This document shows positions 4,376 through 24,971 of a stretch of 37,884 nt of DNA, piece after piece. Each line of letters begins with the position of its first letter. Positions within the stretch are counted from its first letter, which is position 1. Source of the stretch: Candidatus Krumholzibacteriia bacterium. GTDB taxonomy: Bacteria; Krumholzibacteriota; Krumholzibacteriia; LZORAL124-64-63. The notes beneath the pieces are model-generated. The model was not told where the DNA came from, searched no databases, and worked only from the letters and a program-made list of their open reading frames with translations. A program made the position numbers and the translations under genes. Location of the stretch: contig JANTGJ010000019.1 of NCBI GenBank assembly GCA_024762975.1, forward strand, positions 1 through 37,884. Reading direction: 5' to 3'.

Positions 4376-4464
4376 ATTGCGCAGCGGTGTCTCGTCGAAA
4401 CGACGACTCGAACCGTAGGCGTCGCGGACAGCCCCCTTCACCACTCACTCCGGCAGGTCGCAAC

Positions 4465-5793
4465 ATGGGTATGGTCATCGGAATTCGCCGGGAAGACAAG
4501 AACGAGTGGGAACGACGGGTTCCCCTGATTCCCGCCGATCTGCAGCAACTCCAGCATGACCACGACCTGGAGTTCATCGTCCAACCCTCGCCGGTTCGTG
4601 CCTTTGCCGATGGCGATTTCAGGCAAGCAGGTTTGCAGGTCGAGGAAGATCTGTCCGGGGCCGACGTCGTCCTGGCGGTCAAGGAGATCCCCATGGATCT
4701 GCTGCAGGAAAAGAAGGCCTACTTCTTTTTCTCGCACACGATCAAGGGGCAGGACTACAACATGCCCCTGCTGCAATGTCTGCTGGACCGGAAAGCGACC
4801 CTGATCGACTACGAAAAAATCTGCGATGCGAACGGCCGGCGGCTGATCTTTTTCAGCCTTCACGCCGGCTTCGCCGGAATGATCGATACTCTCCATTGCG
4901 CCGGCCGCCGCTATGCGGCCCAGGACCGCTCGACTCCACTGGCCGAGATCAAGGCGGCTCACGAATACGGGAACCTGGATGCAGCGAAGGTCCACCTGCG
5001 CGAAATCGGCCGCCGGATCGAGGCCGAGGGTATCGGCGGGCGCACGACCCCGTTGGTGATTGGCGTTTCCGGCTACGGCAATGTCTACCAGGGCTGCCGC
5101 GAGATTCTCGATTGCTTGCCGGTCCGGGAGATCGAAGTCGACCAATTGCCTTCGATGGCGGATGCACCCGTCGAGGAGACCGGTCCGATTCTGCTGGTTG
5201 TTTTCCGCGAGGAGCACATGGTCGAGCCGCGTTCCGCGCATGCGCAGTTCGTTCTGCGCGACTACTATCAGCGGCCGGAGAACTATCGCGGGATTTTCAA
5301 GCGATACCTGCCCCATCTGGATCTGCTGGTCAACGCGATCTACTGGGACGAAATGTACCCGCGGTTGGTGACTGCGGATTGGGTGAAAGAGAACTACACC
5401 CGGGGTGTGCAACCGCGGTTGCAAGTCATCGGCGACATCAGTTGCGATATCGGCGGCGGCATCGAGGTCACTCTCAAGGCCCCGCAGCCGGACAATCCGT
5501 GTTTCGTCTATGATCCGGAAACCGGCGAGGCGGTGGACGGAGTGGAGGGCGTCGGACCGGTGATCATGTCGGTAGACAACCTGCCCTGCGAGATTCCGAT
5601 AGAATCGTCGACGCATTTCAGCGGCGTTCTGAAAGGAATGTTGCCCGACCTGGTCGATGTCGATTTCGATGTCGATTTCTCGAGCCTGAATCTGCCGAGG
5701 TACCTGAAGAATGCCGTTGTCACCCATCAGGGACAGCTGGCGCCGGACTACCGCTACCTGCAGGAGCACCTGGACGAGAGCGGGAAAAAATGA
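4465..5793 (+). CDS. Lysine-ketoglutarate reductase (saccharopine-forming), stand-alone
   Basis: The predicted enzyme condenses L-lysine with 2-oxoglutarate and reduces the product with NADPH to saccharopine, the first step of the saccharopine pathway. The 442-residue protein matches the N-terminal half of the plant and animal bifunctional enzyme. It opens with an alanine-dehydrogenase/transhydrogenase N-terminal fold (IGIRREDKNEWERRVPL, then FFFSHTIKGQDYNMPLLQ). A nucleotide-binding domain follows (VIGVSGYGNVYQGCREIL), and the ending contains VDNLPCEIPIESSTHFS, the usual LKR signature. The ATG at 4465 starts the conserved fold; upstream in-frame codons encode an Arg-rich stretch with no homology signal. 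Saccharopine dehydrogenase follows 57 nt downstream, so the two activities are split into two proteins here. Confidence 0.9.
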   Translation: MGMVIGIRREDKNEWERRVPLIPADLQQLQHDHDLEFIVQPSPVRAFADGDFRQAGLQVEEDLSGADVVLAVKEIPMDLLQEKKAYFFFSHTIKGQDYNMPLLQCLLDRKATLIDYEKICDANGRRLIFFSLHAGFAGMIDTLHCAGRRYAAQDRSTPLAEIKAAHEYGNLDAAKVHLREIGRRIEAEGIGGRTTPLVIGVSGYGNVYQGCREILDCLPVREIEVDQLPSMADAPVEETGPILLVVFREEHMVEPRSAHAQFVLRDYYQRPENYRGIFKRYLPHLDLLVNAIYWDEMYPRLVTADWVKENYTRGVQPRLQVIGDISCDIGGGIEVTLKAPQPDNPCFVYDPETGEAVDGVEGVGPVIMSVDNLPCEIPIESSTHFSGVLKGMLPDLVDVDFDVDFSSLNLPRYLKNAVVTHQGQLAPDYRYLQEHLDESGKK

Positions 5794-5850
5794 GGGCGAA
5801 AGCCCGGTGTGCCGTAGATTCGGACCGTACCGTGTGAATTGGAGGTTGGG

Positions 5851-7176
5851 ATGAAGAAGGTTCTGGTTCTGGGCGCGGGCATGGTGGCCGGCCCGTTGAT
5901 TCGCTACCTGCTGGAGCGCGAATACGCCCTGACAGTCACCAGTCTGGTGCTCGAGGATGCCGTGAAGCTGGTCGGAGGTGACCCCAACGGTGTAGCGCGC
6001 GCGCTGGACCTGGCCGATGAGAAGGAACTGTCGAGCCTGATTGCGGCGCATGATCTGACGATCAGCCTGGTTCCCTATACCTTTCATCCGGTGGTGGCGC
6101 GCCATTGTCTGGAACAAGAGAAGAATCTGATTACCGCTTCCTATGTCTCGCCCGAGATGCAGGCGTTGCACGAGGACGCCGAGGCCAAGGGACTGATCTT
6201 CCTGAACGAGATCGGCCTGGACCCGGGCATCGACCACATGTCGGCCATGCGGATCATCGACGATGTACACGAGCGGGGCGGCAAGGTCCGTCATTTCCGA
6301 TCTTTTTGTGGTGGACTGCCGGCCCCGGAAGCCAACGACAACCCTTTCGGATACAAGTTTTCCTGGGCACCGCGCGGCGTCCTGATGGCCAGTCGCAACG
6401 GAGCACGCTATTGGCGGGACAATCATATCGTCGAGGTAGCGCCCGAACGTCTATTCCGGGATATGAACATTCTTACGGTGCCAGGAGCCGGGGATTTCGA
6501 GGCGTACCCCAATCGCGACTCGCTGATGTACCGGGATATCTATCAACTCGGTGACGAGATCCGCTCCCTGTACCGCGGTACTCTTCGCTACGTGGGCTGG
6601 TGCGATACCCTCTACAACTTTGGCATGCTCGGAATGCTCGATACCGAACCCCGTGACAGCAAGGGCATGTCGTGCGCCGGGTACATGCGCGACCTGCTGG
6701 GCTGTGCCAGGGACGAGGACCTGAGAGTGGCCGCGGCGGCTCGGATGGGAATCCCGCCCGATTGCCTACCGCCCTGGAATCTGCACTGGCTGGGTCTCTT
6801 CTCGCGACGGCCGGTGGGGGCGGACCGGATCTCACCCCTGGATTTCCTCGGGGAAATCATGGAAGAGAAGTTGGCCTACCGACCGGGCGAGCGGGATATG
6901 GTCGTGCTCTACCACGAATTCAAGGCATGGTTCGAGGCCGACAACCACTACGAGCGATTGACCTCGACCCTGGTGGACTTCGGCGTGCGGTATGGGGACA
7001 GCTCGATGTCCCGCACCGTATCGCTGCCGGCGGCCATCGCAGCCAAGCTCATTCTGGATGGGAAGATTCCCCAACGGGGAGTGCTGCGACCGGTCTATCC
7101 GGAAATCTACAACCCGGTTCTGGATGAACTGTCCGAGATGAATATCGAATGTAAGGAAGAGAAAACGGCCTACTAG
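5851..7176 (+). CDS. Saccharopine dehydrogenase (glutamate-forming)
   Basis: This enzyme oxidises saccharopine with NAD(P)+ to aminoadipate semialdehyde and glutamate, the second step of lysine breakdown. The 441-residue protein begins with a Rossmann dinucleotide site, VLGAGMVAGP (residues 6-15). It carries the family signature NEIGLDPGIDHMSAM, followed by FRSFCGGLPAPEANDNPFGYKFSW, which lines the substrate pocket in fungal and animal enzymes. It ends in LDEL plus a short charged tail. GGAGG at 5841-5845 sets the ATG at 5851. The gene lies between the reductase (57 nt upstream) and the aldehyde dehydrogenase (58 nt downstream). Co-location of all three enzymes makes a catabolic role much more likely than fungal-type lysine synthesis. 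Confidence 0.93.
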   Translation: MKKVLVLGAGMVAGPLIRYLLEREYALTVTSLVLEDAVKLVGGDPNGVARALDLADEKELSSLIAAHDLTISLVPYTFHPVVARHCLEQEKNLITASYVSPEMQALHEDAEAKGLIFLNEIGLDPGIDHMSAMRIIDDVHERGGKVRHFRSFCGGLPAPEANDNPFGYKFSWAPRGVLMASRNGARYWRDNHIVEVAPERLFRDMNILTVPGAGDFEAYPNRDSLMYRDIYQLGDEIRSLYRGTLRYVGWCDTLYNFGMLGMLDTEPRDSKGMSCAGYMRDLLGCARDEDLRVAAAARMGIPPDCLPPWNLHWLGLFSRRPVGADRISPLDFLGEIMEEKLAYRPGERDMVVLYHEFKAWFEADNHYERLTSTLVDFGVRYGDSSMSRTVSLPAAIAAKLILDGKIPQRGVLRPVYPEIYNPVLDELSEMNIECKEEKTAY

Positions 7177-7234
7177 CGGACGCGATCACCATCGTGCCGC
7201 TCGTAGCCCTCAACCTGTTGGAGGATAGCCAGTC

Positions 7235-8782
7235 ATGGCCAAGAAAACCAAGATCACGAAGGCCGCGATTTTCCGGGCCCTGGGCCTGAAAGCGAAGATG
7301 AAGGGTGCCAACTGCGGCGGCGAGTGGTTCGCCGACAGCAAGGACTACATCACGTCCTTCAACCCGACCAACGGCGAGGTCCTGGCTCGTATTGAGCAGG
7401 CCAGTTCCAGGGACTACGACAAAGTCATGCGCGAAGCCCGCAAGGCGTTCCTCGTCTGGCGCGGGCTTCCCGCTCCCCAACGCGGCGAAATTGTCCGCCA
7501 GGTGGGCGAGGCCCTGCGCCAGAAGAAGGAAATGCTGGGTGCCCTGGTCAGCCTCGAGATGGGCAAGATCTACACCGAAGGACTGGGCGAGGTCCAGGAG
7601 ATGATCGATATCTGCGACTTCGCCGTGGGGCTGAGCCGCAACCTGTCCGGACCGACGCTGCAGAGCGAGCGCCCGAAGCATCGCATGATGGAGCAGTGGC
7701 ACCCGTTGGGCGTCATCGGCGTCATCAGCGCCTTCAATTTCCCGGTCGCCGTGTGGGCCTGGAATACCGCTTTGGCCTGGGTTTGCGGTGACTCGGCGTT
7801 GTGGAAACCTTCGAGCAAGACGCCGCTGTGTGCGATCGCCTGTCAGAATATCGTCAACGAGGTCTTCGCGAAGAACGACGTGCCGGGCGCAATTTCCAAC
7901 GTGACGATCGGCCGCGGTTCGACCATCGGCGAGCGCCTGATCAACGACAAGCACATCCCCATGGTTTCGGCGACCGGTTCGACCCGCATGGGACAGCGTA
8001 TCGGCGGAGTTGTCGGCGCACGTCTGGGGCGTACCATTCTGGAGCTGGGCGGCAATAACGCCGTCATTATCAGCGAGAAGGCCGACCTGACGGGCGCTCT
8101 GGCCAGCGCTTTCTTCGGTGCCGTCGGTACCGCCGGCCAGCGCTGCACCTCGACCCGCCGCCTGATCATCCAGGAGACGGTGTACGACAAGTTCCTCAAG
8201 AAGATGATCGCCAACTACAAGAAGGTTGCGATCGGGGATCCCCTGGACAGCAAGACCCTGATGGGACCGCTGATCGACGAGGGCGCCGTGAAGGATTACG
8301 AGAACGCCATCGCTGCGGCCAGGGAGCAGGGCGGGAAGGTGCTTTGCGGCGGCAAGGTTCTGAAGCCTTTCGGCGCGGCGACCTTCGTGCAACCGACGAT
8401 CATCGAGATCGACAACAAGGCTGCGATCGTCCAGAGCGAAACCTTCGCGCCGATCCTGTATGTGATGAAGTACAAGAAGATCGAGCAGGCCTTCAAGCTG
8501 CACAACGACGTGCCGCAGGGACTGAGCTCGGCTATCTACACCGACAGCGTGAACGAGGGTGAGGCATTCCTCAGCTACCTCGGTTCCGACTGCGGCATCG
8601 CCAACATCAACATCGGCACCTCCGGTGCGGAAATCGGCGGAGCCTTCGGCGGGGAGAAGGAAACCGGCGGTGGTCGCGAGTCCGGCTCCGACGCCTGGAA
8701 GCTGTACATGCGCCGGCAGACGAACACCATCAACTGGGGCGGCGAAGTGCACCTGGCCCAGGGAGTGGAGTTCCACGCCTAG
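7235..8782 (+). CDS. Antiquitin-type (ALDH7) alpha-aminoadipate semialdehyde dehydrogenase
   Basis: The 515-residue protein is an NAD(P)+-dependent aldehyde dehydrogenase. The general base Glu270 lies in LELGGNNA and the catalytic Cys304 in GTAGQRCTSTRRL. The stretch MGKIYTEGLGEVQEMIDICDF and the later SGPTLQSERPKHRMMEQWHP are characteristic of the ALDH7/antiquitin family, whose human member oxidises alpha-aminoadipate semialdehyde. In this operon it is the expected third enzyme, converting the product of saccharopine dehydrogenase into aminoadipate. GGAGGA in front of the ATG at 7235 supports the start. A strong hairpin follows 22 nt after the stop, closing the operon. Antiquitins can also oxidise betaine aldehyde, so a part in osmotic stress is possible. 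Confidence 0.93.
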   Translation: MAKKTKITKAAIFRALGLKAKMKGANCGGEWFADSKDYITSFNPTNGEVLARIEQASSRDYDKVMREARKAFLVWRGLPAPQRGEIVRQVGEALRQKKEMLGALVSLEMGKIYTEGLGEVQEMIDICDFAVGLSRNLSGPTLQSERPKHRMMEQWHPLGVIGVISAFNFPVAVWAWNTALAWVCGDSALWKPSSKTPLCAIACQNIVNEVFAKNDVPGAISNVTIGRGSTIGERLINDKHIPMVSATGSTRMGQRIGGVVGARLGRTILELGGNNAVIISEKADLTGALASAFFGAVGTAGQRCTSTRRLIIQETVYDKFLKKMIANYKKVAIGDPLDSKTLMGPLIDEGAVKDYENAIAAAREQGGKVLCGGKVLKPFGAATFVQPTIIEIDNKAAIVQSETFAPILYVMKYKKIEQAFKLHNDVPQGLSSAIYTDSVNEGEAFLSYLGSDCGIANINIGTSGAEIGGAFGGEKETGGGRESGSDAWKLYMRRQTNTINWGGEVHLAQGVEFHA

Positions 8783-8897: not shown

Positions 8898-11897
8898 ATG
8901 ACTGAAAGTAGCGAAAATTTCGTGCCGGTCGACGGCGATGGACGCTTCAGCGGCTTCGGCCACCTGATGCCCCACCGTGTCCAGGAGATCCTCCTGGTCG
9001 CAAGCATGTATGATGCCTTCACTCTGGAGGAGGGCGGTCGCCTGACCGAGCTCCTGCTGAACGAGTACCGGGACCTGAATCTCAGTTTTCCACCGCATGT
9101 GACTCGCGCCTCGACGGGCGAAGAAGCCCTTCAGTTGATGGATCTGCGACGCTTCGACCTGGTCATCACGATGACCCGCCTGGGTGACATGCTGGCGACC
9201 GAGCTGGCGACACAGATCAAGCAAGGCTCCCCGGATCTGCAGGTGTTCAATCTCTCGTTCAACCCGCGCGAATTGGCCCATATCCGTTCGATGGACACGG
9301 ACTGTTGTATCGATCGCTACTTCCTGTGGACCGGCGACAATCGGCTGCTGCTGGCGATCATCAAGCATGCCGAGGACGTTCTGAACGTTGCGCACGATAC
9401 CCGATATGGCGATGTGCGCTGTATCCTGCTGATCGAGGATTCGATCCGGTTCTATTCCTCGTACCTGCCGATGCTCTACACCGAAGTGCTCGAGCAGACG
9501 CAATCGCTGATGGTCGAGGGGATCAATCTCAGCCACCGACTCCTGCGTTTGCGCGCGCGGCCGAAAATCCTGCTGGCCACGACGTTCGAAGAAGCGTGGG
9601 AACTGTACCGTTTGTACCAGGACTCGCTGCTGGGGGTGATCAGTGACGGCAAGTTTCCCTGGAAGGGCGTCGAGCGACGGGACGCGGGTGTCGAGTTTAT
9701 TCGCCGCGTCAAATACGTCGATCCCCATACACCGACGGTACTGCAGTCCACGAACCGGGATCTCGCCGGGACGGCGCATGCGATCGGCGCCGGCTTCATT
9801 CACAAGCATTCCCGCAAGCTGTTGCGCGAACTGCGCCTCTTCATGCTCGAAAATTTCGGATTTGGAGACTTCGTTTTTCGCAATGCCGCAGGCGAGGAAC
9901 TCGGACGGGCACCTGACCTGAAGTCACTGGTGAAGTTGCTGCGTTCGGTGCCGGTGGAGTCGATCAGCCATCACGCCAGTCACGATCATTTTTCGAATTG
10001 GCTGCGCGCCCGCACGGAATTCGAATTGGCATCGCGATTGCGGCCGCGCAAGGTAACCGAGTTCAGCGATCTGGAAGAGTTGCGCGAATACCTGGTGATG
10101 GCGATCAACCGTTTCCGGACCGAGAGCCAACTGGGCATCGTCGCCGATTTTTCACGGCAGCAGTTTGACAACAGCAGTGCCTTCGTGCGGATCGGGCAGG
10201 GCTCGCTGGGGGGCAAGGGCCGCGGTCTGGCCTTCATGAATTCGATCCTGCACCGCTACAGCGTGACGGATCGCTTTGCAGGCGTGGAGATCCGCGTTCC
10301 TCCGACCGCCGTCGTCGGGACGGATGTCTTCGATCGATTCGTCGGCCAGGGCGATCTGCGGGAGCAGGTACTGGGTGATATCGAGGACGAAAAGGTCACC
10401 GAACTGTTCCTGGAGGCGAAGCTGCCGCCGGAGTTCTACGACGACCTGCGCGCATTCCTGGACCTGGTTCGCTATCCATTGGCGGTGCGTTCCTCCAGTC
10501 TACTGGAAGACAGCCAATTCCAACCCTTCGCGGGGGTCTACTCCACCTACATGCTGCCCAATTCCCATCCGGACCTGGGGGTGCGCCTGGATCAGCTCTG
10601 CGATGCGATCAAGCTGGTCTACGCCTCGGCCTACAGCCGCGCGGCCAAGGGCTATATCGAGGCGACCAGCAACCGGATCGAAGAGGAGAAGATGGCGGTC
10701 GTCATTCAACAGATGGTCGGCCGACGCTACGAGGGTTTCGACTACCCGCACTTCTCGGGGGTAGCGCATTCCTCGAATTTCTATCCCGGGGAGGGCGGTA
10801 AGCCCGAGGATGGCGTTGCCGCGGTGGCGCTCGGTCTGGGCAGGACCATCGTCGAGGGCGGCAAAACGCTTCGGTTCAGCCCGGCTCAACCGGGGGTGCT
10901 TCGGCAATTCGGTACGGTCAAGGATTGGCTGAACAACAGCCAACGAATGTTCTGTGCGATGGATGTTCGCGATCCCGAGCGCTACCCGCGTGCGGATGAC
11001 GGTTTCAATCTTGCGCAATTGGAACTTGCCGATGCCGAGCGTCACGGGACACTCGAGGCGGTGGGGTCGGTGTATTCGCCGGAGAACGACGCGGTCTATG
11101 ACGGCATCCACCGAAAGGGTGTACGACTGGTATCCTTCGCGCACATCCTGAAGTCCGATCTTTTCCCGCTGGCACCGATTCTCGAATTGCTGCTCGAACT
11201 GGGGCGGCGCACGATGAGCGCCGAAGTGGAGATCGAATTCGCGGTGGTGCTGGGCGACGGTCGGCTGGTGCCCCATCAATTCGGTTTCCTGCAGATCCGC
11301 CCCCTTGCTGCGGGGTACGAAGCGCCGGACATTCCGCCGGAAGCGCTGCAGAGCGAAGCCTCGGTGATGTCCACCGGACTGGCCCTCGGCAATGGGGTCT
11401 ACGATGAGATTCGCGACATTTTATACGTGCCACGAGACCGGTTCGACCGTTCACGTACCCAGGATATCGCGGTGGAAATCGGGCGCTTGAACCACCGCTT
11501 CGTCCAGGAGGGGATTCCCTATCTGTTGGTGGGCCCGGGGCGCTGGGGATCGTCCGACAGATGGCTCGGTATTCCCGTGCGCTGGGACGAGATTTCGGGG
11601 GCCCGCGTCATCGTCGAGACGGATCTCGACGATTTCAAGGTCACACCCAGCCAAGGGTCGCACTTTTTCCAGAATCTGACGAGTTTCCAGATCGGCTATC
11701 TGACGATCAGCACCGGAACCGAGGGAAGTCGGATCGATTGGGAATGGCTGGACAGCCAGCCGGGCAGCGACGAAGGCGAGTTCCTGCGGCATCTGCACTT
11801 TGATGAGCCTTTGGAAGTGCTGATCGATGGGCGTACGCAGGCGGGAGTCGTACTGCGCCCTGGTGCGGATGCTTATCGGCCCAACCGGGGGATCTGA
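8898..11897 (+). CDS. Receiver-like/receiver/PEP-synthase nucleotide-binding-domain fusion protein
   Basis: This 999-residue protein combines signalling and phosphotransfer-type domains. Residues about 25-165 look like a response-regulator fold in which the phosphoacceptor position of FDLVITMTRLG is not Asp, so it is probably a pseudo-receiver. Residues about 175-320 form a second receiver with the acidic pair in LLIEDS (180-181), the acceptor Asp250 in GVISDGKFP and a conserved Lys303. The rest carries a PEP/pyruvate phosphate dikinase-type N-terminal (ATP-grasp) domain: SLGGKGRG at 436-443 and VRSSSLLEDSQFQPFAG at 530-546. I see no swivelling phosphohistidine domain and no PEP-binding barrel, so it cannot be a complete PEP synthase. 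No membrane segment is evident. The gene stands alone between two transcription units. Substrate and partner are unknown. Confidence 0.8.
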   Translation: MTESSENFVPVDGDGRFSGFGHLMPHRVQEILLVASMYDAFTLEEGGRLTELLLNEYRDLNLSFPPHVTRASTGEEALQLMDLRRFDLVITMTRLGDMLATELATQIKQGSPDLQVFNLSFNPRELAHIRSMDTDCCIDRYFLWTGDNRLLLAIIKHAEDVLNVAHDTRYGDVRCILLIEDSIRFYSSYLPMLYTEVLEQTQSLMVEGINLSHRLLRLRARPKILLATTFEEAWELYRLYQDSLLGVISDGKFPWKGVERRDAGVEFIRRVKYVDPHTPTVLQSTNRDLAGTAHAIGAGFIHKHSRKLLRELRLFMLENFGFGDFVFRNAAGEELGRAPDLKSLVKLLRSVPVESISHHASHDHFSNWLRARTEFELASRLRPRKVTEFSDLEELREYLVMAINRFRTESQLGIVADFSRQQFDNSSAFVRIGQGSLGGKGRGLAFMNSILHRYSVTDRFAGVEIRVPPTAVVGTDVFDRFVGQGDLREQVLGDIEDEKVTELFLEAKLPPEFYDDLRAFLDLVRYPLAVRSSSLLEDSQFQPFAGVYSTYMLPNSHPDLGVRLDQLCDAIKLVYASAYSRAAKGYIEATSNRIEEEKMAVVIQQMVGRRYEGFDYPHFSGVAHSSNFYPGEGGKPEDGVAAVALGLGRTIVEGGKTLRFSPAQPGVLRQFGTVKDWLNNSQRMFCAMDVRDPERYPRADDGFNLAQLELADAERHGTLEAVGSVYSPENDAVYDGIHRKGVRLVSFAHILKSDLFPLAPILELLLELGRRTMSAEVEIEFAVVLGDGRLVPHQFGFLQIRPLAAGYEAPDIPPEALQSEASVMSTGLALGNGVYDEIRDILYVPRDRFDRSRTQDIAVEIGRLNHRFVQEGIPYLLVGPGRWGSSDRWLGIPVRWDEISGARVIVETDLDDFKVTPSQGSHFFQNLTSFQIGYLTISTGTEGSRIDWEWLDSQPGSDEGEFLRHLHFDEPLEVLIDGRTQAGVVLRPGADAYRPNRGI

Positions 11898-12045: not shown

Positions 12046-12105
12046 CTAGTTGTCATATGAAAAGTACTCGTCCGTACATTCCGTGCATGACCGAGGAGTT
12101 TGACA

Positions 12106-14448
12106 ATGAAGATCGGGCGTAAACTCACGCTGTCACACATCTTGATGGCATTGGTGCCGGTGGCCCTGCTGGCGGGTGCTCTTCTGTATGAATTCCAGCA
12201 TTCCATGGCGGTGCTGAATCATGCAGCGACCGTGGACGGAATCGATGTTGCGGTCGAGCAGGCTTCGTCCGCACTGACGGATGCTTCCCTGGAGAAACTG
12301 GGCGTCGTCCACGATCGCAAGGTCCAGGCGCTGGAAGAGATCGTCGCCGGTATGCGCAAGGATGCGGAGTATCTCTCGCACTCGGCACGAACGGCCGAAA
12401 TCTTCGAAGGTCTGAAGTTTTATCACGATTTCGGGGGACTGACCGAACAGAACACGCTGGATGTCACCAGCGACAGCTACGCCTCCCTCGACAGCGATGC
12501 CCAAGCCTTTTTCGGCGACTTCATGAAGGGCAAGACCTATGGCGAGCTCTTTCTGGTGTGCGCAGCGCACGGCCATGTCCTGTATTCCTACCAGAAGAAC
12601 TCGGACCTGGGTCAGAACGTGGGCGAGGGCCCGCTACGGAACGAGGGGCTCGGAAGTATCTGGCGGGCAGTCAACGCGAATCAGGCGACGAGCATCGTCG
12701 ACTACTCTCCCTATACGCCCGCCGGGGGCGAGCAAACCGCCTTCCTGGGAACCCCCTGTGTGAATGAGGATGGGGACGTGTATGCACAGTTGATCCTGGA
12801 GGTTGCCAGCGACGAGATTGAGGATATCATCAACGACCGGATCGGCCTGGGTGAAACCGGCGACTCCTTCCTGGTCGGTGCGGATGCCGATGGAGGAACC
12901 TCCCTGCGTTCGAACTGGCGCTCCATGAACCAATCGATCGGTGATCCGAAACAAGGCGAGTTCGTCGCCCGGATCATGGACGGTGAATCCGGCAACGGCA
13001 GCAAGACGCGACCGGACGGCAACGGGATTCTGGTCTGCTACTCGCCCGTGAACCTGGCCGGTCTGCAATGGGGGCTGGTGACCACCCAGGATCAGCAGGA
13101 AGCGCTCGCGGCGGTGGACCGAATGGTGGACGTACAAGAACGGATCGGGGCAGAAATCGAAGAGACCCGCGCGTCCGCAATCCGAAACGTGCAGTGGATC
13201 AGCGGAATCATGTTGTTGTTCTTTGTCGCCCTGGCCGGCGGTCTGGCGTTCGCGATCTCGCGCAACATTACGCGTCCCCTGGTCGGTGCGGTACAGGTCG
13301 CCGACGCGGTCGCGATGGGAGATCTGACCCATCGCCTCGAGAGCAATGCGACCGACGAAGTGGGGGAACTGGCCCGGTCCCTGAACACGATGACCGAGGG
13401 ATTGCGTACCAAAGCGGACTTGGCTGCGGCGATCGCCGATGGCGATCTGACTTGCGAGATCGTTCCGACCAGTGAGCACGATGAATTCGGAAAGGCGCTG
13501 CAGCGCATGGTCGAACAGCTGGCCGAAGTCGTCGGAGGCATTCAGACTGCAGCCGAACAGGTCAGCTCGGGTTCGAAGGAAATCGCGGATTCCAGCTCCA
13601 GCCTCTCACAGGGCGCCACCGAGCAGGCCGCGGCACTCGAGGAAATTTCCGCCTCGATGACCGAGCTCAACGGCCAGGTCAAGACCAATGCCGAGAGCGC
13701 CGGCCAAGCCGATCAGCTTTCGAACGTTGCGCGTGAGACGGCGGTCACCGGCGTCGATCAGATGCGTACCATGACCGGCGCGATGAACGAGATCAGTTCT
13801 TCGAGTGAGGAAATCGCGAAGATCATCAAGGTCATTGACGACATCGCGTTCCAGACCAACCTCTTGGCCCTGAACGCGGCGGTGGAGGCCGCACGCGCCG
13901 GCAGTCACGGCAAGGGTTTCGCTGTCGTAGCCGAGGAAGTCCGCAACCTGGCCGGGCGCAGCGCCAAGGCCGCCCGCGAATCCTCCCAACTGATCGAGGG
14001 CTCGCTGGACAAGGTCAGGAACGGTACCGAGATCGCCAACACCACGGCCGCGTCCCTCGAATCGATTGTCAGCAGCGTGACGCAGGCTTCCGACCTGGTC
14101 GGTGAGATCGCTTCGGCGAGCAACGAACAAGCCCAGGGCATCACCGAAGTCAGCCAGGGGCTGAGCCAGATCGATTCGGTGACGCAGCAGAACACGGCCA
14201 ACAGTGAGGAAACGGCATCGGCGGCGCAGGAGTTGTCGAGCCAGGCCGCCACACTGCAGCACCTGCTGAGCAAGTTCACGCTGCGCGATACCGGCCCGGT
14301 CGCTTCGACCTGGGATGTCGAAGAACAGGTCTACGAACCCGCCGGACAGGGGGAGGAATCGTACGATCTTCCTTCTCCCGATGCTCCTGCCGAGGATTTT
14401 GCGGCGGACCGGGATGTGATCGAATTGACCTCCGGATGGGGGGACTGA
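12106..14448 (+). CDS. Methyl-accepting chemotaxis protein with a large periplasmic sensor domain
   Basis: This 780-residue transmembrane chemoreceptor should control a CheA/CheW complex. A first membrane helix lies at about residues 11-29 and a second at about 362-385. The long external part between them (about 34-355) has the size and style of a double Cache (dCACHE) sensor; its ligand cannot be read from the sequence. A HAMP segment follows (SRNITRPLVGAVQVADAVA). The cytoplasmic signalling coil has the hairpin-tip motif FQTNLLALNAAVEAARAG. The C-terminus is an acidic tail of about 50 residues with no NWETF-type CheR-docking peptide. The ATG at 12106 is preceded by GAGGAG; the in-frame TTG six bases earlier is less likely. 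No other chemotaxis genes are in the window. Confidence 0.93.
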   Translation: MKIGRKLTLSHILMALVPVALLAGALLYEFQHSMAVLNHAATVDGIDVAVEQASSALTDASLEKLGVVHDRKVQALEEIVAGMRKDAEYLSHSARTAEIFEGLKFYHDFGGLTEQNTLDVTSDSYASLDSDAQAFFGDFMKGKTYGELFLVCAAHGHVLYSYQKNSDLGQNVGEGPLRNEGLGSIWRAVNANQATSIVDYSPYTPAGGEQTAFLGTPCVNEDGDVYAQLILEVASDEIEDIINDRIGLGETGDSFLVGADADGGTSLRSNWRSMNQSIGDPKQGEFVARIMDGESGNGSKTRPDGNGILVCYSPVNLAGLQWGLVTTQDQQEALAAVDRMVDVQERIGAEIEETRASAIRNVQWISGIMLLFFVALAGGLAFAISRNITRPLVGAVQVADAVAMGDLTHRLESNATDEVGELARSLNTMTEGLRTKADLAAAIADGDLTCEIVPTSEHDEFGKALQRMVEQLAEVVGGIQTAAEQVSSGSKEIADSSSSLSQGATEQAAALEEISASMTELNGQVKTNAESAGQADQLSNVARETAVTGVDQMRTMTGAMNEISSSSEEIAKIIKVIDDIAFQTNLLALNAAVEAARAGSHGKGFAVVAEEVRNLAGRSAKAARESSQLIEGSLDKVRNGTEIANTTAASLESIVSSVTQASDLVGEIASASNEQAQGITEVSQGLSQIDSVTQQNTANSEETASAAQELSSQAATLQHLLSKFTLRDTGPVASTWDVEEQVYEPAGQGEESYDLPSPDAPAEDFAADRDVIELTSGWGD

Positions 14449-14653: not shown

Positions 14654-16015
14654 ATGGCTCAGAACGTTGCTGCCTTCATGGAAAACGTGATCGCCAAGAA
14701 CCCGTCGGAAAAAGAGTTCCACCAGGCGGTCGAGGAAGTCGTCGAGTCCCTGTGGCCGGTCCTGGACAAGCGTCCTGAGTACCGTAAGCACAAGATCATG
14801 GAGCGGATCACCGAGCCCGAGCGCGTCCTCATGTTCCGCGTTCCCTGGGTCGATGACAAGGGCGAGGTTCAGGTCAACCGCGGTTTCCGCATCGAGATGA
14901 ACAGCGCGATCGGTCCCTACAAGGGCGGCCTGCGCTTCCACCCGAGCGTCAACCTGGGGATCCTGAAGTTCCTGGCTTTCGAGCAGGTCTTCAAGAACGC
15001 CCTGACCACCCTGCCCATGGGCGGCGGCAAGGGCGGCTCGGACTTCGACCCGAAGGGCAAGAGTGATATCGAGGTCATGCGCTTTACGCAGGCCTTCATG
15101 AGCGAGCTCTTCCGTCACATCGGTCCGAACACGGATGTCCCCGCCGGTGATATCGGCGTCGGCGGCCGCGAGATCGGGTTCCTGTTCGGCCAGTACAAGA
15201 AGCTGCGCAACGAGTTCACCGGCGTCCTGACGGGCAAGGGCCTGAACTGGGGCGGCAGCCTGATTCGTCCCGAGGCCACCGGTTACGGTTCGGTCTACTT
15301 CGCTGCCAACATGCTCGAGACCAAGGGTGATACCCTCGAGGGCAAGACCGCCCTGGTTTCCGGTTCCGGCAACGTTTGCCAGTACACGATCGAAAAGCTG
15401 CTGGATCTGGGCGCCAAGCCGATCACCTGCTCGGACAGCGGCGGCTACATCCTGGACGAGGAAGGCATCGATCGCGAGAAGCTGGCCTTCATCATGGAAC
15501 TGAAGAATGTCAAGCGCGGCCGGATCAGCGAGTACGCTGAGAAGTATCCCAACGCGGTCTACACTGCGGTCGACAAGGACCTGGACTACAACCCGCTGTG
15601 GAACCACAAGGCTGACTGTGCCTTCCCGAGCGCCACGCAGAACGAGATCAACGCCAAGGACGCCGGTCACCTGCTGGCCAACGGCGTGGGTGTGGTCTCC
15701 GAGGGCGCGAACATGCCGACCGTCCCCGAGGGCGTCAACCAGTTCGTCGACGCCGGCATCCTGTACGGACCTGGCAAGGCTGCGAACGCCGGTGGCGTTG
15801 CTGTTTCCGGTCTCGAGATGAGCCAGAACAGCCTGCGTTACAACTGGACCCGCGAGGAAGTGGACCAGAAGCTGCACCGCATCATGAAGGACATTCACGA
15901 TGCGTCGGCCGCCGCTGCCAACGAGTTCGGTACGCCGGGCAACTATGTCAATGGCGCCAACATCGCCGGCTTCATCAAGGTTGCCGACTCGATGATGGAC
16001 CAGGGCATCGTCTAA
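14654..16015 (+). CDS. gdhA: Hexameric glutamate dehydrogenase (probably NADP-linked)
   Basis: The enzyme interconverts 2-oxoglutarate plus ammonia and glutamate. The 453-residue length and opening match the small hexameric class typified by E. coli GdhA. Visible landmarks are GPYKGGLRFHP (substrate-binding Lys90), PMGGGKGG with the catalytic Lys126, DVPAGDIGVGGREIGFLFGQY, the nucleotide-binding GSGNVCQYTIEKL, and the closing GANIAGFIKVADSM. AAGGAG eight bases before the ATG at 14654 is a good ribosome site. Codon choice is strongly biased (CTG, AAG, AAC, ATC), which suggests high expression. It is a single-gene unit with its own terminator. Glutamate produced by lysine breakdown could be one of its substrates; this link is inference. 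Confidence 0.95.
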   Translation: MAQNVAAFMENVIAKNPSEKEFHQAVEEVVESLWPVLDKRPEYRKHKIMERITEPERVLMFRVPWVDDKGEVQVNRGFRIEMNSAIGPYKGGLRFHPSVNLGILKFLAFEQVFKNALTTLPMGGGKGGSDFDPKGKSDIEVMRFTQAFMSELFRHIGPNTDVPAGDIGVGGREIGFLFGQYKKLRNEFTGVLTGKGLNWGGSLIRPEATGYGSVYFAANMLETKGDTLEGKTALVSGSGNVCQYTIEKLLDLGAKPITCSDSGGYILDEEGIDREKLAFIMELKNVKRGRISEYAEKYPNAVYTAVDKDLDYNPLWNHKADCAFPSATQNEINAKDAGHLLANGVGVVSEGANMPTVPEGVNQFVDAGILYGPGKAANAGGVAVSGLEMSQNSLRYNWTREEVDQKLHRIMKDIHDASAAAANEFGTPGNYVNGANIAGFIKVADSMMDQGIV

Positions 16016-24200: not shown

Positions 24201-24263
24201 TCTGTTCGGAATCTACCACGCGAATCTGCGGAAATAGCTGGAAATCAGCGAGTGAGGAACGAC

Positions 24264-24971
24264 ATGACCGAGAAAAGCATGATCGAGCGCAGCCCCATCC
24301 GCATCTTCGACCGGGCGATCGGTGGGGGACTGGGCACGGGCAATCTGGGTGTGGTGTTGTCACGTCCGGGTGTCGGCAAGACGGCCTTCCTGATCGGGCT
24401 GGCCGTGGACCAGTTGCTGCAGGGCAAGAAAGTGCTCTACATTTCGACCAAGGAACCGGTGGATCACATCCATCACTTCTTCGACGAGGTCTTCCACTCC
24501 ATGGCTGCCGCGCTGGACGCCAGCAGCGTGCCGCAGCGTCAACTGAAGATGGAGCGCAACCGCCATATCCTGGTCTACAACCGCGACTTCTTCTCCCTGG
24601 AGAAGCTGGAACAGTCCGCTACCTTTTTGAAGGATGCTGCGGGCTTCGTGCCCGACATGGTGATCATGGATGGCACTCCGCGTTTCTCGAAATCCGAGAA
24701 GTGGGAAATCGAGGGCGTGCGCAAGTTGGCCGCCGAGTGGAATGCCGAGGTCTGGACGAGCGCGAATACCCATCGCGAAGGCCAGGACATGGACGAGCGC
24801 GGCGTGCCGAACGCCATCGCGAAATATGACGAGCTGGTGGACGTGATCGTCCACCTGTGCCCCGAAAGTGAACACATCAGGGTTCGGATCACCAAGGAGC
24901 ACTCCAACGAGGAGATCGCTCAGGTGCAGATGGAACTGGACGCGGCCACGATGTTGCTGCGTTGGAACTAG
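24264..24971 (+). CDS. Orphan RecA/KaiC-like P-loop ATPase of unknown function
   Basis: This 235-residue cytoplasmic protein has a single RecA-fold ATPase core. A lead-in resembling KaiC/DnaB (IRIFDRAIGGGLGTGNLGVV) runs into Walker A RPGVGKTA (Lys39), then a strand VLYISTKEP in the place where KaiC and RadA have a catalytic acidic residue. Walker B is PDMVIMDG. A strand reading EVWTSANTHRE follows, like the sensor strand of RecA-type ATPases. There is no HTH, zinc finger or second ATPase domain. GAGGA ahead of the ATG at 24264 supports the start. It lies 63 nt after EF-G and 4 nt before YggS, so it is probably co-transcribed with one or both. Function unknown. Confidence 0.75.
   Translation: MTEKSMIERSPIRIFDRAIGGGLGTGNLGVVLSRPGVGKTAFLIGLAVDQLLQGKKVLYISTKEPVDHIHHFFDEVFHSMAAALDASSVPQRQLKMERNRHILVYNRDFFSLEKLEQSATFLKDAAGFVPDMVIMDGTPRFSKSEKWEIEGVRKLAAEWNAEVWTSANTHREGQDMDERGVPNAIAKYDELVDVIVHLCPESEHIRVRITKEHSNEEIAQVQMELDAATMLLRWN

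Follow-up and report, generated by a model that had tools for sequence, protein, structure and literature searches.

The window analysed here (37,884 nucleotides of contig JANTGJ010000019.1 from a Candidatus Krumholzibacteriia bacterium, assembly GCA_024762975.1) carries a gene for a protein of 999 amino acids in which two receiver domains precede an ATP-grasp domain of the pyruvate phosphate dikinase (PPDK) type. The question raised by this locus is what such a protein acts upon, for which the first-pass annotation could offer only an unknown partner. That partner can now be narrowed to a probable one, glutamate dehydrogenase (GDH), as the GDH gene was the only neighbour found to be conserved across phyla.

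Identification of the gene and its relatives

The 999-residue open reading frame noted in the first-pass annotation was present on the forward strand, and its parts were assigned as follows:

8898..11897, + strand: family-a gene, encoding a REC-REC-PPDK_N-C-terminal domain protein of 999 aa
8979..9410, + strand: receiver 1 (residues 28-171), a pseudo-receiver, with the Met92 codon at 9171-9173 (AlphaFold2 fold)
9417..9872, + strand: receiver 2 (residues 174-325), intact, with the D250 codon at 9645-9647 and the K303 codon at 9804-9806
9873..10142, + strand: mostly helical linker (residues 326-415; AlphaFold2 model, weak DUF5752 match)
10176..11318, + strand: ATP-grasp / PPDK_N domain (residues 427-807; Pfam, VIA-align, conservation)
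11355..11867, + strand: C-terminal alpha/beta domain (residues 820-990), with the His922 codon at 11661-11663

The full-length protein (family a) was kept at 40-82% identity across more than 10 phyla, and a family-a match, mostly of full length, was found in 38 of 38 genomes of the relatives search; an artefact, a pseudogene or a one-off fusion is thereby ruled out. The relative with 82% identity (L023) lies in a record titled Gemmatimonadales, a title that may be a misassignment.

The architecture itself is already known. 'Bacteroides-like' REC-PPDK response regulators were noted in PMC5847659, and REC-PPDK proteins are among the outputs of Asp-less receivers in PMC4395418; like family a, these combine one or more receivers with a pyruvate-phosphate-dikinase-type domain. 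The domain set had been put forward as the most unusual in the window; it is a widespread response-regulator type and not unique to this DNA. The surveys go no further than listing the architecture; what is added here is the pairing with GDH, the His922-bearing C-terminal domain and the two sets of paralogs (b and c) described below. No paper linking REC-PPDK proteins to GDH was found in the literature searched.

Receivers and linker

A model of the whole protein was made with AlphaFold2 using 50 relatives (pLDDT 85, pTM 0.76). Residue conservation was counted among 77 relatives, and the invariant histidines were counted in a 50-sequence alignment. Pfam returned a sub-threshold receiver match at residues 67-122 of the 999-aa protein. 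Structure prediction, which had been set in advance as a check on which the receivers could fall, gave two receiver folds, at residues 28-171 and 174-325; both predicted domains have the (beta-alpha)5 fold, with structural matches at Z 14-16, and PorX receivers matched receiver 1 of the model at Z 15-16 (VIA-align).

The two receivers differ in their acceptor residues, much as had been read from the sequence. Receiver 1 has Met92 in place of the acceptor aspartate (methionine in 69 of 77 relatives). Receiver 2 has the full acceptor set of E180, D181, D250, S284 and K303, of which E180, D250 and K303 were each present in 77/77 relatives, while position 181 was aspartate or asparagine. Residues 337-412 of the linker gave a DUF5752 match below the Pfam cut-off (E 0.0011).

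ATP-grasp domain

The PPDK_N-like region of the first-pass annotation was borne out and proved wider than the 436-546 given there, with a Pfam match to PPDK_N (PF01326) at residues 436-805 (E 5.7e-37). When the model was compared with known structures by VIA-align, this domain matched rifampin phosphotransferase (RPH; 5hv1) at Z 26.7 and Neisseria PEP synthase (2ols) at Z 26.5, and several alignments to PEP synthase and PPDK extended to model residues 987-999. The residues K440, R531, E778, E780, Q799 and R801, which we take to be the ATP-contacting residues of PPDK, were conserved; R531 and R801 were present in 77/77 relatives and Q799 in 76/77, so that a family-wide loss of ATP-binding residues did not occur.

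No match to the PEP/pyruvate barrel (PF02896) was obtained with Pfam at E up to 1 and the model leaves no room for one, in agreement with the earlier reading. As there is no barrel, PPDK or PEP synthase proper is ruled out as the identity of the protein.

C-terminal domain

The C-terminal domain contains the motifs GPGRWG, LGIPV and PSQGSHFFQN and, when modelled alone, was predicted with a pLDDT of 90.7 and a pTM of 0.89. It had no match to PF00391 or to any other Pfam family (with PEP-utilising domains searched for up to E = 1), an hhalign comparison with local PEP-utiliser domains gave E values of 0.13-0.65 and thus no recognition, and Foldseek with the domain alone returned nothing at E<=0.001. 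The best 12 VIA-align matches were modest (Z 5.4-6.9) and comprised the central (phosphoryl-carrier) domain of PPDK, the swivel domain of RPH and the extension at the C-terminus of pyruvate kinase; most of them are phosphoryl carriers from enzymes that share this type of ATP-grasp. His922 was the sole strictly invariant histidine of the protein in the 50-sequence alignment and is placed at the start of a helix, and every b and c paralog inspected kept the HFF motif.

The domain is thus a probable, though not proven, divergent phosphohistidine swivel domain. A Z of up to 6.9 lies below the level at which such a match would stand alone and is suggestive only, and the call is held at probable because the scores are modest and because Foldseek, Pfam and profile alignment were blind to the match. 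It is supported by the fusion of the domain behind exactly the kind of ATP-grasp that swivel domains serve and by the invariant histidine at a helix start. The phosphohistidine domain had been declared absent, which, judging from the model, is probably wrong; the blindness of Pfam to this domain would explain that verdict.

Family a resembles PPDK and PEP synthase in its ATP-grasp fold and ATP residues and in a C-terminal domain similar to the phosphoryl-carrier domain (PPDK residues 374-518), but differs from them in lacking the barrel and the PF00391 signature and in having added receivers. RPH and the two-component dikinases HpeHI, CreHI and PpsAB share with it a PPDK_N-type ATP-grasp and the lack of a PEP barrel, and have a swivel domain with a conserved histidine to which the C-terminal domain of family a is the probable counterpart; in HpeHI the two modules work without the barrel and need the conserved histidine (PMC12167813). 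Unlike family a, these systems carry a small-molecule-binding domain and no receivers; the C-terminal domain of family a, for its part, is not recognisable by sequence.

Pairing with glutamate dehydrogenase

When the neighbours of family a were clustered, a GDH cluster was found in 72 loci and was the only neighbour conserved beyond a single lineage; the next commonest cluster occurred in 27 loci, all from Krumholzibacteria relatives. The same clustering over loci gave no histidine kinase as a conserved neighbour. A GDH gene lay within 1.2 kb of 53 of the 77 distinct family-a copies. Because that set had been gathered by similarity, the pairing was recounted on evenly drawn genomes (395 from Bacteroidota and 297 from Desulfobacterota).

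Among the Bacteroidota, 54/395 genomes carried family a in 66 copies, and 52 of these lay less than 1 kb from a GDH gene, where about 0.15 would be expected. A family-I GDH was present in 54/54 carriers and in 19/81 tested non-carriers, a comparison that ignores phylogeny. The Desulfobacterota repeat this pairing independently: 14/297 genomes carried 15 copies, of which 13 were within 350 bp of GDH as read from coordinates, and GDH1 occurred in 14/14 carriers and in 5/41 of the non-carriers tested (Fisher P = 2.7e-9, ignoring phylogeny).

The arrangement of the two genes varied. GDH was downstream of family a on the same strand in Krumholzibacteria and Desulfobacterota, upstream on the same strand in Acidobacteriota, as well as in the loci of Zixibacteria and Phycisphaerae that have a GDH, downstream on the opposite strand in Gemmatimonadota, and on both sides of family a in Ignavibacteria. 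Family a stood head-to-head with gdhA in Parabacteroides distasonis and Phocaeicola massiliensis, and in two further loci (L171 and L172), whose family-a proteins are 66% identical to that of Parabacteroides, it was just downstream of gdhA and convergent with it. Such variety implies that the association was re-formed or was kept through rearrangements. Genomes with two family-a genes mostly had a separate GDH for each of them, although in one Bacteroidota group this one-to-one pattern may be a single inherited arrangement.

Family a had no adjoining GDH in marine archaea, several Planctomycetota, Fermentibacteria and some Bacteroidales, and a GDH-family gene (PF00208) was present somewhere in 16 of 18 genomes checked, linkage controls included. 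Bacteroidales of one sediment data set (L063, L064 and L071) had two tandem family-a genes with no GDH beside them. Full-length family a also occurred in Marine Group II/III-type archaea (L057, L058, L066 and L068) with no GDH nearby, next to a glycosyltransferase gene in L066 and a PKD-domain gene in L057; the archaeal copies are possibly the result of horizontal transfer.

When partnered and unpartnered family-I GDHs were compared, in an alignment that held one badly aligned sequence, no residue separated the two groups, and hence no GDH modification site was visible.

Paralogs b and c

Two sets of paralogs share the PPDK_N and C-terminal domains. Family b (about 580 aa) is without receivers, and family c (about 800-1060 aa) often has a nucleotidyltransferase domain at its C-terminus. 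GDH2, b and c were contiguous in 10/10 loci with b, complete a-GDH2-b-c operons were found in L090 and L092, and loci of Bacteroidota and Ignavibacteria had the order c-GDH2-a-GDH1-a-GDH1. Family-c genes with an NTP_transf_2/Polbeta domain adjoined GDH2 at L097:8052-11225, L093:6068-9238 and L089:6578-9343. Family c may be a second GDH modifier with GlnD/GlnE-like chemistry.

The locus in the window

The gene is flanked as follows:

4387..8782, + strand: genes for an AlaDH/PNT-N protein, saccharopine dehydrogenase and L-piperidine-6-carboxylate dehydrogenase, just upstream
12100..14448, + strand: chemoreceptor-like gene (HAMP + MCP), separating the family-a gene from GDH
14654..16015, + strand: NADP-type glutamate dehydrogenase (GDH1), the putative partner

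This GDH was the only one found in the genome, and paralogs b and c were not detected there. The genes just upstream probably form the lysine-to-glutamate (saccharopine) pathway of lysine catabolism, the product of which, glutamate, fits a catabolic role of the nearby GDH in this lineage. Family a, the chemoreceptor-like gene and GDH1 follow one another in the window, while the relative L095 has the order a-GDH2-c-chemoreceptor-GDH1, so that the order in the window resembles that operon with GDH2 and c lost. The chemoreceptor homologue follows c in both L095 and L033, with GDH1 next in each; this gene was conserved in only three loci. Elsewhere in the window a small KaiC/DnaB-like ATPase gene (24252-24971) lies between the EF-G and DivIVA genes.

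Proposed function

The domains, the conserved residues, the predicted swivel-like fold and the GDH pairing were all observed here. The position of family a beside a GDH gene across many phyla suggests that the protein is probably a dedicated GDH controller. We rate at about an even chance the full proposal, namely a response regulator devoted to GDH with a dikinase-type phosphotransferase output, and if that holds, this receiver-gated histidine phosphotransferase probably controls GDH by phosphorylating it. Receiver 2 would take a phosphoryl group on Asp250 from a donor, the Asp-less receiver 1 serving as a dimerisation or regulatory module, and phosphorylation of Asp250 would open or close the ATP-grasp. 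The latter would phosphorylate His922 on the swivelling C-terminal domain, with release of AMP and Pi as in PPDK and RPH, and the phosphoryl group would then pass from His922 to the neighbouring GDH, or to an effector bound to it, and so set GDH activity. We infer ATP turnover, phosphorylation of His922, receiver gating, the role of GDH as acceptor and the direction in which its activity would change.

The best of the alternatives, one that we nonetheless consider unlikely, is a non-covalent regulator that transfers no phosphoryl group but binds GDH stoichiometrically and activates or inhibits it, the ATP-grasp sensing ATP/AMP charge and the receivers a signal. It would account equally for the GDH linkage, and is consistent with GDHs that show no visible phosphosite and with the weak score of the swivel-domain call; the ATP-grasp residues and His922 are, however, all invariant or nearly so, which seems to exceed what sensing alone would require.

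It is improbable that the protein is a metabolic enzyme acting next to GDH, one that would phosphorylate some 2-oxoglutarate- or glutamate-linked small molecule, as HpeHI and RPH do with theirs, while its receivers tune flux. HpeHI does show that ATP-grasp and swivel modules lacking a PEP barrel can have small-molecule substrates (PMC12167813), and the locus in the window comes after a lysine-to-glutamate pathway, but Pfam and the model reveal no additional domain for binding an acceptor, whether of the rifampin or the PEP-barrel kind, the metabolic neighbours vary between phyla while GDH is constant, and the receivers suggest regulation.

More doubtful again is a self-contained phosphorelay, in which His922, charged from ATP, would pass its phosphoryl group to Asp250 of the same or a partner protein and the phosphorylated receiver would control GDH, the dikinase module standing in for a histidine kinase. 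Asp250, Lys303 and His922 are invariant together, no histidine kinase is conservedly linked, and paralog b, though receiver-less, retains the ATP-grasp and His922; against this, we know of no citable precedent, and neither b nor c contains a receiver. A broader form of the idea, to which we give similarly little weight, is that a, b and c make up an unrecognised GDH signalling layer, in which PPDK-derived phosphohistidine chemistry would charge His922, and His922 would supply the Asp of a fused receiver, GDH or both, making up a His-Asp relay that needs no histidine kinase.

Mere co-regulation, with family a sharing nitrogen-responsive loci with GDH and acting on another target, is the least likely reading, for although some lineages hold family a away from GDH, it is GDH alone that persists in two independently sampled phyla and in differing orders and orientations, and duplicates pair with it nearly one-to-one.

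Significance

GDH stands at the junction of carbon and nitrogen metabolism, and for Bacteroidota, as for many other phyla, we know of no protein regulator dedicated to GDH. A conserved phosphotransfer family, so far only catalogued, that is paired with GDH would be a strong candidate for such a regulator.

The pairing may also bear on an older observation. In the title of their paper, Baggio and Morrison (1996; pmid 8955404) report a dependence of the activity of Bacteroides thetaiotaomicron GDH, a family-I enzyme, on one or more trans-acting genes, located downstream of gdhA; family a is likewise just downstream of gdhA in L171 and L172. Family a is a candidate for the trans-acting gene(s). 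BT_1971, which was also considered, is ruled out as it is a catalase. Family a could nevertheless give a testable identity to the gene(s) there described and, if the proposed function is true, would be a case of dikinase chemistry put to regulatory use.
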